The notes beneath the pieces were generated by a model. That model saw nothing but the letters and a program-made list of their open reading frames with translations, was not told where the DNA came from and ran no database searches. This document shows, in pieces, positions 12,432-22,656 of a stretch of DNA of 23,786 nucleotides (position 1 is its first letter; every line of letters starts with the position of its first letter). The stretch comes from a virus, in the IMG/VR virus record IMGVR_UViG_3300000525_000043, positions 1 to 23,786 of that record; one strand, written 5' to 3'. The position numbers and the translations under genes are program-made.

Positions 12432-12439
12432 TATATTAG
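12432..12439 (+). promoter_or_regulatory. Candidate promoter TATATTAG of the modification operon
   Basis: One mismatch to TAnnTTTG, 18 nt after a six-T tract, 32 bp before the ATG at 12472. From here to the terminator at 16730 no other good promoter was seen, so it probably drives the repeat protein, carbamoyltransferase, kinase, dUTPase and hydroxymethylase genes together. Confidence 0.4.
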
Positions 12440-12471
12440 CTGAACATAATAATCAACATAAATAATTTAAA

Positions 12472-13314
12472 ATGAAGGCAAAACACTATGCATTTAGGGA
12501 CAGACATGAAATTGTACTTGAGACAGGCAAAACATACAAATCATTTCAAGGAGAAAAAGAAGGAACTTTCCGAGATAGGGTTATAGAAAAAGTAAGCGAA
12601 ACAAATGCAAACTCCTTAGAAATACTGAAGATATGTCAAGAGGATATAAAAAACCTGGCAACTGCTATAGCTGAAAAGCGCTTGCTGAAATCTAAAGGAT
12701 TAGAAAAAGAAATGCTTCAAGACCTACTACAATCAAGAAGTAAAAAAGGCAATACTGCCGAAAAACCAAGTAGTGAACCAGAAACAAAAGACATGAAGAC
12801 AAAAAAAGAAGAAACCAACGATGATTTATTGGGACCAGAGGTAGTGGCCACTGAGCCAAAAGCAGAAGCTAAGCCAAAAGCAGAAGCTAAGCCAAAAGCT
12901 AAGCCAAAAGCAGAAGCTAAGCCAAAAGCTAAGCCAAAAGCTAAGCCAAAAGCTAAGCCAAAAGCAGAAGCTAAGCCAAAAGCAGAAGCTAAGCCAAAAG
13001 CAGAAGCTAAGCCAAAAGCAGAAGCTAAGCCAAAAGCTGAACCTAAAGAAAAGGACACAAGAACCGCTGATGAAAAAAAGGATGACAGAGTAGCTGAGCT
13101 AAAGGAATTTAAGGAGACAGCTCAATACAAAAAAGCGTTAGAGGATGTCGGTAAAACAGTAATTTTCTCGGCAGGAAAAACTAAGAATGGTAAAGGTGAG
13201 ATTAGAAGCTTATCTTTGAACAAAACTCTCACTAAAATATACTACACAGTAGTTAATGAAAAGAACAAAAAGCGAGAGTGTGTTACTTTAGGTAATGTAG
13301 AATTTGTAAAGTAG
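12472..13314 (+). CDS. Lys/Ala/Pro-repeat protein at the head of the modification operon
   Basis: 280 residues. An N-terminal domain of about 95 residues (KHYAFRDRHEIVLETGKTYK, then helices) and a C-terminal domain of about 80 residues (KKALEDVGKTVIFSAGKTKN to VTLGNVEFVK) flank a central tract, residues about 128-192, of PKAEAK and PKAK units. Such basic Ala/Pro/Lys tracts resemble histone H1 tails and TolA-like linkers; they can bind DNA or act as an extended spacer. I do not recognise the flanking domains. It ends 4 bp before the carbamoyltransferase ATG, so it is in the same transcript; a role in DNA modification or in packing modified DNA is possible but unproven. Confidence 0.6.
   Translation: MKAKHYAFRDRHEIVLETGKTYKSFQGEKEGTFRDRVIEKVSETNANSLEILKICQEDIKNLATAIAEKRLLKSKGLEKEMLQDLLQSRSKKGNTAEKPSSEPETKDMKTKKEETNDDLLGPEVVATEPKAEAKPKAEAKPKAKPKAEAKPKAKPKAKPKAKPKAEAKPKAEAKPKAEAKPKAEAKPKAEPKEKDTRTADEKKDDRVAELKEFKETAQYKKALEDVGKTVIFSAGKTKNGKGEIRSLSLNKTLTKIYYTVVNEKNKKRECVTLGNVEFVK
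12855..13045 (+). repeat. Mixed 18-bp and 12-bp tandem repeat inside a coding region
   Basis: Seven 18-bp units CCAAAAGCAGAAGCTAAG (PKAEAK) and four 12-bp units CCAAAAGCTAAG (PKAK), nearly identical at DNA level, in the order 18,18,12,18,12,12,12,18,18,18,18, then one diverged unit. Both lengths keep the reading frame, so the tract can grow or shrink by slippage without breaking the gene. Confidence 0.95.
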
Positions 13315-13318
13315 ATTT

Positions 13319-15052
13319 ATGTTAGACAGAAAAAACAGCGCTGGACTTATGATAACCTTAGGGCATAACTCCAGCGCCGTATTCTATGATGGCACACAAA
13401 AGCCAATAGGATATGAGGAGGAAAGGCTCAATGGGATAAAATCAAGTTCTGCATTCCCGCAGAAATCAATTGAGGAGATAATAAGAAATGTTGAAGCTGC
13501 CAAATTGCAGGGTGCCAAGATATTTGTTTCACACTGGTTCGACACATTTGAACCTAGGTATTTCCCAGGTAAGTACTACGACTACGATTACATGCATCTG
13601 CTAATGAACAGATATGACATGAAACTCGTGCTGCTTTCAAGGGAGTTTACACACCACGATGCTCATGCATATTCTTCATTAGCATTTTTAGAGAACAGGA
13701 CTAATGCTGGGGTAGAAATAGAAACCAACACCCACTTTGTAGTTGCTGATGGTTTTGGAAATGAAAAGGAAGTTATATCAGTTTATAAATTAAGTGAACA
13801 AAAACCTGGTGAATTGGATTTAGTGAGCCGTATACATGGGTACGAAAGGTCATTGGGTTTATTATACCAATATGCCACTTCCTTTTGCGGTATGAAAGAA
13901 ACACAAGATGAGTATAAATTTCTTGGGTATGAGTCTAAAATAGAAGAGAATGTAAGCCTAGAAGGTATTCAGTTATTAAAGCATGAGTCATATCGTATTA
14001 CTGATTATATCTGGACTAGCATGGGTGGTGCTACGCCAAAAACCGAAGCTACAAAGCATTTAGACTCTGCTGCATTGCTGGGAGTTAAGCTTAGCTATCA
14101 CAATGAATTTGCTAAAATCATAGAGAGGTTAAAAGAAATTGAAGTTGTAGAACAGCCAACATCAGGTTTCATACGCAGTTCAATTGGTTTTGTAATACAA
14201 TCCTGTGTTGAGAATATAATGAGTAAAGTTATTTCTGCTTATGACATAGAAAATGTTGTATTATCTGGTGGGTGCTTTTATAATGTAAAGCTAAACAACC
14301 ACGTATTGACTAGAGTAAAAGGCCAAGTATGTGTTTTACCTTTAGCTGGTGATCAAGGTGCAGCAATAGGAATGTATAGAAAATACATAGGAGCATTTGA
14401 TTTTTCAGACCTATGTTTTGGCAAAAGGAAATTATCGAAAAAAGTTAACATAAATTTTACTTCGCCAGTAAAGTTTGTTGATTCTGAAGAGGAATTCATA
14501 CAGACTGTTGTAGAACTTATAGATAAGAACCACATAGTCAACGTCATGCATGGCGATATGGAGTTTGGACCAAGAGCTTTGTGTAACACAAGCACATTAG
14601 CTTTACCCACAGCAAAAAATGTTGCATACATAAATCACATAAACAGAAGGAATACAGTAATGCCTATGGCACCTGTAATACTCAATAAATATGTAGAGTG
14701 TGTGTTCGACAAATCTGAAAATGTTTCTAGAGTGTTAGCTTCAAATGAATACATGGTTATGACCCATGATATTTGCGAAGATGTATCATTATCTGAGAAA
14801 TACCAAGGTATTATTCATAAATACCCATTAGAGGCTAGGTATAGCGGGCGTCCTCAAATTGTAAGAGACAGAAGCACAATCATAGGAAAAATACTTGATA
14901 AAGCAAATTCCATGTGCTTGATAAACACATCTTTTAATACACATGGCACTCCAATACTGTTTAGTGTGTACGATGCTGTTTGGGACTTTACTAAGCAGCG
15001 GGCTTTAGACTATGAAAGATTAGCACATCTAGTAATTTTAACAAATGATTAG
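13319..15052 (+). CDS. NodU/CmcH-family O-carbamoyltransferase, probable 5-hydroxymethylcytosine carbamoyltransferase
   Basis: 577 residues, full length for the family. Kae1-like ATP/metal domain: TLGHNSSAVFYDG (13-25), HHDAH (112-116, metal ligands), VADGFGNE (142-149), LSGGCFYNVKLN (315-326), AGDQGAA (343-349). Then EFGPRAL (415-421), INRRNTVMPMAPVI (441-454), ARYSGRPQIV (506-515) and LINTSFNTHGTPI (534-546). The family transfers carbamoyl from carbamoyl phosphate via carbamoyl-AMP to a hydroxyl. Most members act on antibiotics or Nod factors; phage members are known that carbamoylate 5-hydroxymethylcytosine in DNA. Linked kinase, dUTPase-fold and dCMP-hydroxymethylase-like genes support that substrate. 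Oddity: the usual ALGNRS is ALCNTS here. Confidence 0.9.
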   Translation: MLDRKNSAGLMITLGHNSSAVFYDGTQKPIGYEEERLNGIKSSSAFPQKSIEEIIRNVEAAKLQGAKIFVSHWFDTFEPRYFPGKYYDYDYMHLLMNRYDMKLVLLSREFTHHDAHAYSSLAFLENRTNAGVEIETNTHFVVADGFGNEKEVISVYKLSEQKPGELDLVSRIHGYERSLGLLYQYATSFCGMKETQDEYKFLGYESKIEENVSLEGIQLLKHESYRITDYIWTSMGGATPKTEATKHLDSAALLGVKLSYHNEFAKIIERLKEIEVVEQPTSGFIRSSIGFVIQSCVENIMSKVISAYDIENVVLSGGCFYNVKLNNHVLTRVKGQVCVLPLAGDQGAAIGMYRKYIGAFDFSDLCFGKRKLSKKVNINFTSPVKFVDSEEEFIQTVVELIDKNHIVNVMHGDMEFGPRALCNTSTLALPTAKNVAYINHINRRNTVMPMAPVILNKYVECVFDKSENVSRVLASNEYMVMTHDICEDVSLSEKYQGIIHKYPLEARYSGRPQIVRDRSTIIGKILDKANSMCLINTSFNTHGTPILFSVYDAVWDFTKQRALDYERLAHLVILTND

Positions 15053-15512
15053 AAACATAATAGTGGAAGGTGCAGACCAACAGGGTAAATCAACAGTGTG
15101 CGATATGCTACACGGTTTACTTAATTGGCCTGTCGAACACTTCAATTTAACCATACCTAAAGAATTTGATTTTCATGGGAGTTACATACTCCCTGAAAAT
15201 TCAATATCTGATAGGAGTTATTTATCAGAGATAGTGTACAGCAGCATAAGAGGTTGTGAAAGTAGAGTGGTTAAAAAGGAATTGCTGGAAGAAAGAATGA
15301 AGTGTAGATGCACATTGCTTATATTATGTGATAGGAAAGAGAACTATACTCACAGCAATAGAGACGAATATTTATCTGAGTCTCAAATTCTCAGAGCGAG
15401 AGCTGTGTACAGAGATGTGTTTGAAGAGGTTAGAATGGTTAAAACTAAGGTTGATCCTTCGTATGGGTTAGACTGGCTTAAATCATACGTGAGAGTGTCA
15501 GTTAAGTGGTAG
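15045..15512 (+). CDS. Thymidylate-kinase-like deoxynucleoside monophosphate kinase
   Basis: 155 residues, shorter than cellular thymidylate kinases (about 205). P-loop IIVEGADQQGKST with G9, G14, K15, S16; a DRSYLSEIVY motif (D56, R57) matching the DR-x-x-x-S-x-x-x-Y signature of thymidylate kinases; CTLLILCDRKENY as the strand before a lid-like region; and a helix rich in Arg (ESQILRARAVYRDVFEEVR). It should phosphorylate a dNMP to the diphosphate. The ATG overlaps the carbamoyltransferase stop by 8 bp, so production is coupled. In this operon the natural substrate would be 5-hydroxymethyl-dCMP, by analogy with the T4 dNMP kinase, though dTMP is possible. Confidence 0.75.
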   Translation: MIRNIIVEGADQQGKSTVCDMLHGLLNWPVEHFNLTIPKEFDFHGSYILPENSISDRSYLSEIVYSSIRGCESRVVKKELLEERMKCRCTLLILCDRKENYTHSNRDEYLSESQILRARAVYRDVFEEVRMVKTKVDPSYGLDWLKSYVRVSVKW

Positions 15513-15527
15513 ACATCAGTCAGGCTG

Positions 15528-15587
15528 TAGCCCGATATTTTTGGCTGCATAATATATAAATAATAATATTGAGCCTATTACGGGCTA
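15528..15587 (+). other. Long hairpin between kinase and dUTPase genes
   Basis: In the 98-bp gap, TAGCCCG (15528-15534) pairs with CGGGCTA (15581-15587); inside it GGCT (15543-15546) pairs with AGCC (15572-15575) and AATAT with ATATT. An alternative pairing of AGGCT (15522-15526) with AGCCT (15572-15576) would cross the outer stem, so a switch or pseudoknot is conceivable. No T-run follows the outer stem, arguing against a terminator. It may be a leader element or RNA-processing site for the dUTPase-hydroxymethylase part of the operon. Confidence 0.45.
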
Positions 15588-15610
15588 ATTAAACGCTAAA
15601 TAGTATAGAT

Positions 15611-16048
15611 ATGAGAATAGCAAAAGTTTGTAGTGTGAAAACACCAGAAAGAGGGACAGAGAATTCTGCTGGTATAGATTTCTTTGTACCAGATAGTGCA
15701 GAGAAAATAGTATTGACCCCAAATGAAGATGCAATAATACCTTCAGGTATACATGTGCAAGTGCCTAAAGGTCACATGCTTGTAGCAATGAATAAGTCTG
15801 GTGTAGCAACCAAGAAAAAGCTTATTGTTGGTGCTCAAGTAGTGGACGAGGATTACCAAGGAGAAATACACATACACGTAATAAATACTGGCAAAAGCAC
15901 TACAGAAATAACACGTGGAGCTAAGTTAGTTCAGTTCATTTTAATACCGGTAAATTACGCTATGCCTGAGTTAGTTGGTATAGGTGATCTATACAAATCT
16001 GAAACAGGGAGAGGGAAAGGTGGTTTTGGTTCAACAGGAGAAAAATAA
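15611..16048 (+). CDS. dut: Trimeric dUTPase-fold nucleotidohydrolase (dUTPase, possibly dUTPase/dCTPase)
   Basis: 145 residues with all five dUTPase motifs: I SAGIDF (19-24), II NKSGVATK (61-68, where PRSG is usual), III GAQVVDEDYQGEI (74-86, catalytic D79), IV RGAKLVQFI (102-110) and V RGKGGFGSTG (134-143). The complete motif V points to an active trimeric enzyme that converts dUTP to dUMP and pyrophosphate. In phages replacing cytosine, an enzyme must also remove dCTP (in T4 a different fold does both). No other candidate is in the window, so relaxed specificity for dCTP is worth testing, but that is inference. It is 5 bp upstream of the hydroxymethylase-like gene. Confidence 0.9.
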   Translation: MRIAKVCSVKTPERGTENSAGIDFFVPDSAEKIVLTPNEDAIIPSGIHVQVPKGHMLVAMNKSGVATKKKLIVGAQVVDEDYQGEIHIHVINTGKSTTEITRGAKLVQFILIPVNYAMPELVGIGDLYKSETGRGKGGFGSTGEK

Positions 16049-16053
16049 ATTTT

Positions 16054-16704
16054 ATGAAAACATTAGTATACAACAACGCGCAACACGCATTTGAAGATCT
16101 GTATAGAGAAATACATGAGAATGGAGAAGTACGAAACAACGGCACCCATAGACTTAGGTTTGTGGGTTTTGTTATATTAAATCCTTTGGACAGCATAATA
16201 ACTACGCCTTTTCGTAAGTGGAATGAAACCTATGCGAATAGAGAATTTGAGTGGTATTTATCAGCCAACAGGAGTGTAACTGAGCTAGCTAAGAAAGCGC
16301 CAGTTTGGGACACCATGCACGGAGGTGATGGTATAGTCAACAGTAACTATGGTTACCAATGGGAAAGAAATAGCCAGCTTGATAAATGTATAGAGGATCT
16401 AAGAACCAACAATAAAAGTAGACAGGCTTGGATCACTATAATGGACGGTAAAGAAAAACACCTGCAGGAGTATGATGTACCTTGTACTTTATCTATAGGT
16501 TTTCAAATATCCAATGATAATAAAGTGGAAATGGATGTTGTAATGAGGTCCAATGATCTATGGTATGGTTTTTCTAATGACCAGTATTGCTTTTCTAAAC
16601 TGCAGAAAAAGGTAGCTGACTCATTGGGTTTAGGGGTTGGTGTATACCACCACTATGCTTCTGATATGCACCTATACACAAGTAAAATGGGTATGAATAG
16701 TTAA
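16054..16704 (+). CDS. Thymidylate synthase homologue with dCMP-hydroxymethylase signature
   Basis: 216 residues of the thymidylate synthase fold. Visible: REFEWYLS with E64 (E58 of E. coli TS), SNYGYQW, SRQAWITIM with phosphate-binding R123, catalytic Cys in DVPCTLSIGF (C144), MRSNDLWYGFSNDQY with R165, and SDMHLYTSK (H206, Y208). In the last Arg block the position that is Asn177 in dUMP enzymes is D176 here, as in T4 dCMP hydroxymethylase (Asp179); Asn-to-Asp at this site shifts preference from dUMP to dCMP. It should make 5-hydroxymethyl-dCMP (or 5-methyl-dCMP). It is about 30 residues shorter than T4 gp42 and ends just after HLYxxK, so the C-terminal lid is short or absent. Last gene before a terminator. 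Confidence 0.85.
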   Translation: MKTLVYNNAQHAFEDLYREIHENGEVRNNGTHRLRFVGFVILNPLDSIITTPFRKWNETYANREFEWYLSANRSVTELAKKAPVWDTMHGGDGIVNSNYGYQWERNSQLDKCIEDLRTNNKSRQAWITIMDGKEKHLQEYDVPCTLSIGFQISNDNKVEMDVVMRSNDLWYGFSNDQYCFSKLQKKVADSLGLGVGVYHHYASDMHLYTSKMGMNS

Positions 16705-16729
16705 AATCAACGGCATTTTAAAATATATT

Positions 16730-16764
16730 AAAACCTCTACAATCATTTTTATAAAGGTTTTTTT
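16730..16764 (+). terminator. Terminator of the modification operon (module copy 1)
   Basis: AAAACCTCTA (16730-16739) pairs with the reverse of TATAAAGGTTTT (16750-16761) with one C mismatch; the loop contains ATCATT, and the T-tract runs to 16764. The same hairpin recurs at 17810, 21820 and 22598. Confidence 0.7.
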
Positions 16765-16781
16765 CAACCATTATTTATTAT

Positions 16782-16789
16782 TATATTTG
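16782..16789 (+). promoter_or_regulatory. Promoter -7 box TATATTTG (module copy 1)
   Basis: Exact box, 17 nt after the terminator T-tract and 29 bp before the GTG of the SprT-like gene. The T-tract probably doubles as the upstream promoter element. Confidence 0.65.
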
Positions 16790-16818: not shown

Positions 16819-17328
16819 GTGGAGGATCTAATAGATTTAAAAGAAATTGCAGTTTCTATGGTTAATAAAACTTATGAGCTGTCTAATGGTGTTGAAGTAA
16901 ACATAGCAGAAGATTATGGCTATACTTTTGCTTTTGGCGGTTATAAAAGAGCATTAGGTAAGTGCGACATGTATCAAAAGAAAATAACTATAAGCAAACC
17001 TTGGGCTGTTAATAACCTACAAGAAGAGCATATATTAATTGACACAGTGTTGCATGAAATAGCACATGCAATAGCCTATGAAATGTATGGTGACGGCGGA
17101 CATGGAAAAGCCTGGAAAATGGTATGCAGACTTATAGGTTACACAGGAGAAAGAACCTTTAAACAGGATAGAGATTCCACAGTTACTCCACCAAAAGGAA
17201 AGTATCAATACGCTTGTCCTTCTTGTGAGCGCATACACCAATTTTACAGAAAGCCAAAAAGAGCCCACAGCTGTGGTATGTGCTCACCTACATTTAAACC
17301 AAGCCTGGTTTTAAAATTAGTGGAGTAG
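16819..17328 (+). CDS. SprT-like zinc metalloprotease
   Basis: 169 residues from a GTG start. Zincin site TVLHEIAHAIAYEMYG with H79, E80 and H83, third ligand H95 (GGHGKAWKMVCRLIG), as in SprT/SPRTN-type proteins. A C-terminal zinc ribbon follows: C133 and C136 (YACPSCERIH), C152 and C155 (HSCGMCSP). Eukaryotic SPRTN cuts DNA-protein crosslinks; phage and bacterial SprT proteins are assumed to process DNA-bound proteins, but substrates are not established. The start GTG is favoured because it follows an AAATTAAAAATT leader and the module-1 promoter; an ATG at 16858 would cut 13 residues. It forms a single-gene unit between two terminator-promoter modules. Confidence 0.88.
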   Translation: MEDLIDLKEIAVSMVNKTYELSNGVEVNIAEDYGYTFAFGGYKRALGKCDMYQKKITISKPWAVNNLQEEHILIDTVLHEIAHAIAYEMYGDGGHGKAWKMVCRLIGYTGERTFKQDRDSTVTPPKGKYQYACPSCERIHQFYRKPKRAHSCGMCSPTFKPSLVLKLVE

Positions 17329-17592: not shown

Positions 17593-17801
17593 ATGGCAGA
17601 TTTAAAGATTACTGAAGAAGAAAAAATAATATTTTATTTTCTAAATGATTTAAGGGATTCAGGAGAGACTAATATGTTTGCTGCAACCTCGCATATAGAA
17701 AAAGAATTCGGCACCAGTACTAGGGAATCATTAGCTCATTTAGTAAGTGGATGAAAAACTTCAATCAAGATGGGTATGAGCATATAAAGATTATAGATTA
17801 A
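17593..17801 (+). pseudogene. Small phage gene split by a frameshift near 17740
   Basis: The first frame (17593-17754) encodes 53 residues: EEEKIIFYFLNDLRDSGETN, then MFAATSHIEKEFGTSTRESL, stopping at TGA. The remaining part is in a second frame, where an ATG at 17751 overlaps that stop and the frame stays open upstream: FSKWMKNFNQDGYEHIKIID to TAA at 17801. Joined, these resemble a common small phage protein with a LxDLRxSGETNMF core and a W-M-K-x-F-x-x-DGYEHI tail. A one-base gain (or two-base loss) around 17735-17748 explains it. It could be true decay, a sequencing error or programmed frameshifting; there is no obvious slippery heptamer there. Confidence 0.6.
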
Positions 17802-17809
17802 AACTCAAT

Positions 17810-17845
17810 AAAGCCTTTATAATCATAGGTATAAAGGTTTTTTTT
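17810..17845 (+). terminator. Intrinsic terminator (module copy 3)
   Basis: AAAGCCTTTATA (17810-17821) pairs with TATAAAGGTTTT (17830-17841), 12 positions with one G-T wobble, followed by T-tract to 17845. Loop contains ATCAT. Confidence 0.75.
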
Positions 17846-17861
17846 AATTAATATTTAGTAT

Positions 17862-17869
17862 TATATTTG
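17862..17869 (+). promoter_or_regulatory. Promoter -7 box TATATTTG (module copy 3)
   Basis: Exact box 16 nt after the T-tract and 23 bp before the ATG at 17893; likely promoter of the run of genes from 17893 to about 21436. Confidence 0.65.
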
Positions 17870-17892
17870 ATTATAATTAAAATTAATCTTAT

Positions 17893-21819: not shown

Positions 21820-21854
21820 AAAGCATTTATAATCATTGTTATAAAGGTTTTTTT
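21820..21854 (+). terminator. Intrinsic terminator (module copy 4)
   Basis: AAAGCATTTATAA (21820-21832) with TTATAAAGGTTTT (21839-21851), mostly paired, T-tract to 21854, loop TCATTG. Confidence 0.65.
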
Positions 21855-21871
21855 CAATTAGTATTTAATAG

Positions 21872-21879
21872 TATATTTG
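21872..21879 (+). promoter_or_regulatory. Promoter -7 box TATATTTG (module copy 4)
   Basis: Exact box, 17 nt after the T-tract and 28 bp before the ATG at 21908; the module is nearly identical to the one at 22598-22656. Confidence 0.65.
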
Positions 21880-21907
21880 ATTATTATTAATATTTAAACT
21901 AAAAATT

Positions 21908-22569: not shown

Positions 22570-22597
22570 ACCCATAAAAACTATGTGTAAGTAGATT

Positions 22598-22631
22598 AAA
22601 GCATTTATAATCATTGTTATAAAGGTTTTTT
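22598..22631 (+). terminator. Intrinsic terminator (module copy 5)
   Basis: AAAGCATTTATAA (22598-22610) with TTATAAAGG (22617-22625) and T-tract to 22631; same arms and loop as copy 4 with one T fewer. Confidence 0.65.
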
Positions 22632-22648
22632 CAATTAATATTTAATAG

Positions 22649-22656
22649 TATATTTG
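22649..22656 (+). promoter_or_regulatory. Promoter -7 box TATATTTG (module copy 5)
   Basis: Exact box 17 nt after the T-tract and 35 bp before the ATG at 22692. Confidence 0.65.

Follow-up and report, generated by a model that had tools for sequence, protein, structure and literature searches.

A viral DNA stretch of 23,786 bases (IMG/VR virus record IMGVR_UViG_3300000525_000043; the whole stretch is referred to here as the window, and is probably a fragment of a viral genome) carries four head-to-tail genes on its + strand, encoding a carbamoyltransferase (CT), a kinase, a dUTPase and a homologue of thymidylate synthase (TS). On sequence evidence, we read this block, with a probability of about 0.87, as a phage cytosine-hypermodification operon yielding 5-carbamoyloxymethylcytosine. 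The support drawn from the sequences covers the family membership of the products, their diagnostic residues and a conserved pairing of CT and TS genes across viral loci. The features concerned are:

13319–15052, + strand: predicted 5-hydroxymethylcytosine CT, 577 aa (Pfam and PHROG domains, identity to the MetaGPA enzyme, residues, tree)
15045–15512, + strand: TMK-fold nucleoside-monophosphate kinase, 155 aa (P-loop EGADQQGKST, DR motif, model)
15611–16048, + strand: canonical trimeric-type dUTPase, complete, 145 aa (motif III VVDEDYQGE, C-terminal RGKGGFGSTG)
16054–16704, + strand: dCMP hydroxymethylase-type TS homologue, 216 aa (C144, T145, R165, D168, D176, W85, NSNYG)
16579–16581, + strand: codon of D176, the dCMP-type Asp (E. 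coli N177 and T4 D179 position, by alignment)

A first-pass annotation, made from the letters alone, had named a carbamoyltransferase starting at 13319, a TMK-like kinase overlapping it by 8 bp, a complete dUTPase-fold enzyme and a TS homologue with the dCMP-type Asp, and all four identifications are borne out by the results below.

The carbamoyltransferase, its thymidylate synthase partner and the accessory enzymes

The only biochemically proven 5-hydroxymethylcytosine (hmC) CT is the metagenome enzyme expressed, with its sequence printed, in the MetaGPA study (Yang et al. 2021; PMC8670742). It turns 5hmdC in DNA and free 5hmdCTP into the carbamoyloxymethyl form, requires ATP and carbamoyl phosphate, and is inactive on hmdUTP and 5mdCTP; it favours single- over double-stranded DNA, without sequence preference, and conversion was nearly 100% for hmC in single-stranded oligos and about 60% for free 5hmdCTP (PMC8670742). 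The window CT is homologous to this enzyme over its full length (33% identity, 581 aligned positions, E = 4e-80), and is 41, 37 and 36% identical to the CTs of phages BF503P1, Effie and Xp15, respectively. Both carbamoyltransferase domains are present at full length (PF16861, 2e-27; PF02543, 1e-14; phrog_1601, 3e-62), and the metal- and carbamoyl-site residues H112, H113, H116, D144 and D345 (HHxxH, DG and GDQG) are kept. The best-matching solved homologues, NovN, GdmN and TobZ, which were compared by pairwise match only, score far more weakly than the MetaGPA enzyme.

A maximum-likelihood tree of 52 CTs separated the window CT, the MetaGPA enzyme and 40 others from the remaining 10, an outgroup of NodU, Streptomyces, other bacterial and cyanophage Nol-like enzymes, with a branch support of 100. 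The phylogenetic placement that the first-pass annotation had proposed as a check thus groups the window CT with the characterised hmC enzyme, and not with NodU or other CTs. The MetaGPA authors picked TobZ W408, G421 and R423 as residues that differ in modified contigs (PMC8670742); the window CT has V409, C422 and T424 at these sites, which we located by numbering and pairwise alignments, not from a TobZ structure. Throughout the clade the first site is never Trp, the second is mostly Cys and the third is always Thr; in the outgroup the last two are invariably Gly and Arg, and the first is Trp in about half. Taken at the level of sequence, these comparisons support the assignment of the window CT to the MetaGPA-type 5hmC carbamoyltransferases.

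The TS homologue contains a clear TS domain (PF00303, 76.8 bits against a cut-off of 24.3). In sequence it comes closest, among solved structures, to the CMP hydroxymethylase MilA (E = 3e-18) and the dCMP hydroxymethylase of T4 (E = 4e-14), with AfhB at E = 2e-5. The fold comparison, made with an AlphaFold model (pLDDT 90), gave Z 25.9 for MilA, Z 25.6/25.4 for AfhB (9iqc/9iqu) and Z 21.6 for the T4 enzyme. The TS residues ranked highest for cytosine modification by MetaGPA are 177 and 147, the latter beside the catalytic Cys (PMC8670742); the window enzyme is dCMP-type at both (D176 and T145), and the catalytic C144 is present. Like T4 gp42, it keeps the folate Asp (D168; E. coli D169), Trp80 (W85) and NSNYG. 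A link between this Asp and the use of folate comes from the title of PDB entry 1bjg, according to which opening of the imidazolidine ring of the cofactor is not promoted by the D169N mutant. The window enzyme does not match the pattern of RB69 ORF048c (Mosigvirus; annotated as similar to dCMP hydroxymethylase), which has RSQN rather than RSND, lacks Trp80 and has NTFYG rather than NSNYG. The residues kept suggest that the window TS homologue makes 5-hydroxymethyl-dCMP (hm-dCMP) from dCMP. CkP1, tried as a 5-hydroxy-dCMP synthase control, was dropped, being about 80% identical to T4-type gp42, and RB69 ORF048c took its place.

A scan of viral contigs recovered 50 loci of the CT clade, of which 39 measured 11 kb or more; these (32 once near-copies were removed) were counted for pairing, with about 6 kb fetched either side. 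A TS homologue lay within about 6 kb of the CT in every one (39/39; 32/32 non-redundant), and in none of six outgroup phage CT loci of the cyanophage or XacN1 type. Were the loci independent, chance alone would give this pairing with a probability of about 4e-7 (calculated by hand as 1 in C(38,6)), but the loci are related and the figure is a guide only. All of the partner TSs examined carry Asp177 and Thr147; the canonical ThyA encoded elsewhere in Effie has Asn and His. The partners fall into T4-like (loci L007, L014 and L041), short TS-B (the window and the Bacteroides phages), Xp15-kind and other lineages, all Asp-type. That several separate lineages should all be dCMP-type is expected if the supply of hm-dCMP is what matters, and the 32/32 pairing with several unrelated lineages of this type gives independent support for a CT clade dedicated to hydroxymethylcytosine. 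The same 39 loci also hold a kinase (22/39, counted with a profile of the window kinase and those of Xp15 and Effie), a dCMP deaminase (22/39), a MazG-type gene (13/39) or a dUTPase (8/39).

A second TS paralogue lies 3' of the CT and kinase genes in Bacteroides-type loci (L002:14456-15259, L020:8410-9216, L026:3131-3916, L028:8399-9214 and L014:8469-9254), with a possible degenerate copy at L005:8170-8730; the window has none. In most of these paralogues the folate Asp (RSSN) and Trp80 are missing, whereas the Cys and Asp177 persist; the paralogues may be inactive partners or have another activity, for example hydroxylation. A second, separate phage use of this fold is seen in the cyanophage and XacN1 Nol-like CTs (L057-L062): no TS lies close to them, and their neighbours are often glycosyltransferase, epimerase or other sugar genes.

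The kinase domain matched phrog_761 (thymidylate kinase, 5e-9), with the Pfam TMK match under its cut-off, and over the whole length its model (pLDDT 90) matched SPbeta YorR (3kb2) at Z 17.0 and dTMP kinases at Z about 13. Phosphorylation of hm-dCMP, which T4 carries out with gp1, is its likeliest role. Relatives at 44% identity in L005, and at 25–31% in several more loci, rule out the notion of the kinase as a single-phage oddity, and a scan of viral contigs for the kinase only returned just two copies of an L005-type virus. The dUTPase matched TIGR00576 over its full length (104.1 bits against a cut-off of 102.55), with motifs I–V aligned. The slot that it occupies, between the kinase or CT gene and the TS gene, is filled by a MazG/PRA-PH-type gene in Xp15 and, in L005, by a gene that matches dUTPase_2 weakly and below the cut-off (E = 9e-4); the slot genes of related operons include L005:8737-9201, the weak dUTPase_2 match, and L003:13637-14053 (PRA-PH/MazG). 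These different folds may serve one pool-cleaning job.

Proposed pathway and alternatives

The proposed pathway would begin with hydroxymethylation of dCMP by the TS homologue, methylene-tetrahydrofolate being the donor. The TMK-fold kinase, together with the host nucleoside diphosphate kinase, would take hm-dCMP to hm-dCTP, and the dUTPase would trim the competing nucleotide pool. The CT would activate carbamoyl phosphate with ATP to a carbamoyl-adenylate and pass the carbamoyl on to the oxygen of the hydroxymethyl group, with DNA at the fork, hm-dCTP or both of them as the acceptor, and the resulting 5-carbamoyloxymethylcytosine would shield the genome from host nucleases. We infer each reaction, the order of the steps and the resistance to restriction. 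The first-pass annotation had drawn a similar route from dCMP to carbamoylated hmC; the CT clade and both dCMP-type TS residues speak for it, whereas carbamoylation, which it had put on DNA, may take place there or on hm-dCTP, since the MetaGPA enzyme acts on both.

Several observations weigh against this pathway. The dUTPase is canonical and may just supply dTTP, and no dCTPase or other dCTP-removing enzyme, and no dCMP deaminase, was found within the 23.8-kb fragment, so that replacement of cytosine may be partial. The CT and kinase genes are parted from those for the dUTPase and TS by 98 nt in which a promoter may lie. In addition, the TS homologue shares some 30% identity with T4 gp42 and has a C-terminus that stops short of it by 30 residues (216 versus 246 aa); all of the TS-B clade is short.

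The carbamoyl group might also be added to hm-dCTP (or hm-dCMP) before polymerisation, so that replication installs 5-carbamoyloxymethylcytosine, unlike the capping after polymerisation in T4. This option was raised by the MetaGPA authors, whose enzyme converted some 60% of free 5hmdCTP and preferred single- over double-stranded DNA without regard to sequence (PMC8670742), and the 8-bp overlap of the CT and kinase genes fits it; against this, an overlap of genes carries little weight, the MetaGPA enzyme brings conversion of hmC in single-stranded oligos to nearly 100%, and T4 glucosylates post-polymerisation. We regard it as possible, if rather unlikely.

The other alternatives concern the identity of the enzymes. 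The TS homologue could be a flavin-dependent 5-hydroxy-dCMP synthase as in Mosigvirus/RB69, which would make the product 5-carbamoyloxycytosine. Such synthases are TS homologues (Durham phage paper), RB69 has a TMK-like kinase close by, and the structures of AfhB, a phage dCMP hydroxylase, fit the TS model as well as that of MilA does; we take RB69 ORF048c to be the enzyme meant in the Durham phage paper, and AfhB to be its equivalent. However, the folate Asp, active-site Trp and NSNYG that ORF048c lacks are all kept in the window and T4 enzymes, the sequence scores for MilA and T4 are far better than that for AfhB, and the MetaGPA CT, which is partnered with Asp177-type TSs, is proven on hydroxymethyl, all of which makes a hydroxylase improbable. 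A methylase making 5-methyl-dCMP as in phage XP12, with another role for the CT, is more improbable still: the Asn-to-Asp change alone makes a TS a dCMP methylase (cited in PMC8670742), but the proven CT requires the hydroxyl and ignores 5mdCTP, and the window TS is nearest to hydroxymethylases in both sequence and fold. Nor do we give much credence to a CT whose target is a sugar or a surface molecule, as for NodU and the cyanophage Nol-like enzymes, with the TS an incidental neighbour. The Pfam families are identical and several of the cyanophage and XacN1 homologues adjoin glycosyltransferases or other sugar genes, yet the window CT falls in a separate clade (support 100) with different signature residues, no sugar gene was found near it, and the TS partner recurs in 39/39 loci.

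Gene order, transcript limits and host

The remaining features, which bear on the limits of the hypermodification block, are:

12472–13314, + strand: gene lying 4 nt 5' of the CT gene and encoding a Lys/Ala/Pro repeat linker
16730–16761, + strand: intrinsic-terminator-like hairpin with a T-run, AAAACCT...AAGGTTTTTTT, 3' of the TS gene, closing the transcript
16782–16789, + strand: TATATTTG, a Bacteroides-type -7 element opening the next transcript, part of a cassette present four times in the window

The CT and kinase genes overlap at 15045-15052 (spacing -8), the kinase and dUTPase genes are 98 nt apart and the dUTPase and TS genes 5 nt apart. The hairpin, with TATATTTG following at 16782, places the end of the operon after the TS gene; the next transcript begins with a SprT-like protease gene (16819-17328). 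The co-directional genes, their short gaps and the terminator suggest that all four are transcribed together, as claimed in the first-pass annotation, but the 98-nt gap holds a lone TATTTTTG, so that a second promoter there, and thus two transcripts, is possible. A long inverted repeat in the same gap (TAGCCCG ... CGGGCTA, 15528-15587) folded no better than shuffles (z -0.45).

TAnnTTTG is the -7 element of Bacteroides promoters, and this motif was used for promoter calls because a scan for the sigma-70 consensus gave results near chance (24 observed versus 19.6 ± 4.2). It occurred nine times in the + strand intergenic gaps, compared with 2.6 ± 1.6 in shuffles, and three times on the - strand, and the + strand excess supports, on sequence grounds, a Bacteroidota-type host for the window phage. 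The terminator-plus-promoter cassette, a hairpin ending AAAGGTTTTTT and then TATTTAnTAnTATATTTG, has copies at 16730-16789, 17800-17870, 21820-21880 and 22595-22656 (the last three near 17833, 21843 and 22621), each directly 5' of a gene, and the four mark transcript boundaries of this phage. The host could not be read from prophages, since the CT clade turned up in a single contig when bacterial genomes were scanned. This contig, from a Patescibacteria metagenome-assembled genome (L070:4794-6482, also with a T4-like TS), is perhaps a misbinned phage or a real Patescibacteria phage.

The gene at 12472 is a possible further member of the operon. Its linker, of Lys, Pro, Ala and Glu, is encoded by a tandem 18/30-bp repeat (12854-13046); the L005 homologue, in the same place, has no linker and retains the C-terminal part. 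Further 5' of the CT gene lies a replication block (exonuclease, ssDNA-binding protein, PolA, VapE primase/helicase, phrog_93 phage endonuclease, SNF2 helicase and HNH/endoVII), syntenic with that of Bacteroides fragilis phage BF503P1 and IMG/VR loci L005, L020 and L028.

Significance and comparison with known systems

5-Carbamoyloxymethylcytosine has hitherto been shown for one metagenome-derived enzyme in vitro, and the open literature searched gave no report of a phage isolate carrying it. The main gain is that cultured phages are found to carry the gene set; as a module with all of the diagnostic residues occurs in them, the natural occurrence of the base, the stage of its synthesis and its protective value become directly testable. 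New here are these cultured carriers (BF503P1 and its kin, Xp15 and Effie), the Bacteroides-type host, the operon limits and the swapped pyrophosphatase slot.

The window system resembles the MetaGPA CT and its TS partner (PMC8670742) in having a full-length homologue in one clade, signature positions altered alike and a paired Asp177-type TS, but at 33% identity it comes from a different, Bacteroides-type phage lineage, in which the kinase overlaps the CT and a dUTPase sits between kinase and TS. The B. fragilis phages BF503P1, BF503P2, BF503P4, BF486P2, BF486P3 and BF494P1 share the syntenic replication block, the CT (41% to BF503P1), the dUTPase (51%) and the TS (56%), although BF503P1 differs in encoding an additional, altered paralogue of the TS and in having a kinase of the AAA_28 type in place of the TMK-fold kinase. 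Xanthomonas phage Xp15 and Acinetobacter phage Effie likewise have a CT, a short kinase and an Asp-type TS in one run, with a MazG/PRA-PH-type pyrophosphatase instead of the dUTPase, and a dCMP deaminase in addition. T4 gp42 with the glucosyltransferases follows the same plan, hm-dCMP being formed at the monophosphate level and the hydroxyl capped afterwards, but the T4 cap is glucose, where that of the window would be carbamoyl, and the TS lineages differ. The RB69 5-hydroxy-dCMP synthase and phage AfhB share the TS fold and the dCMP substrate, and RB69 a nearby TMK-like kinase, whereas the window keeps the folate Asp, the Trp and NSNYG, all three of which RB69 ORF048c has lost. Finally, NodU, TobZ, GdmN and NovN have the Pfam domains and, presumably, the two-step chemistry of the window CT, while NodU and the Streptomyces homologues belong to another clade, with the W/G/R signature.

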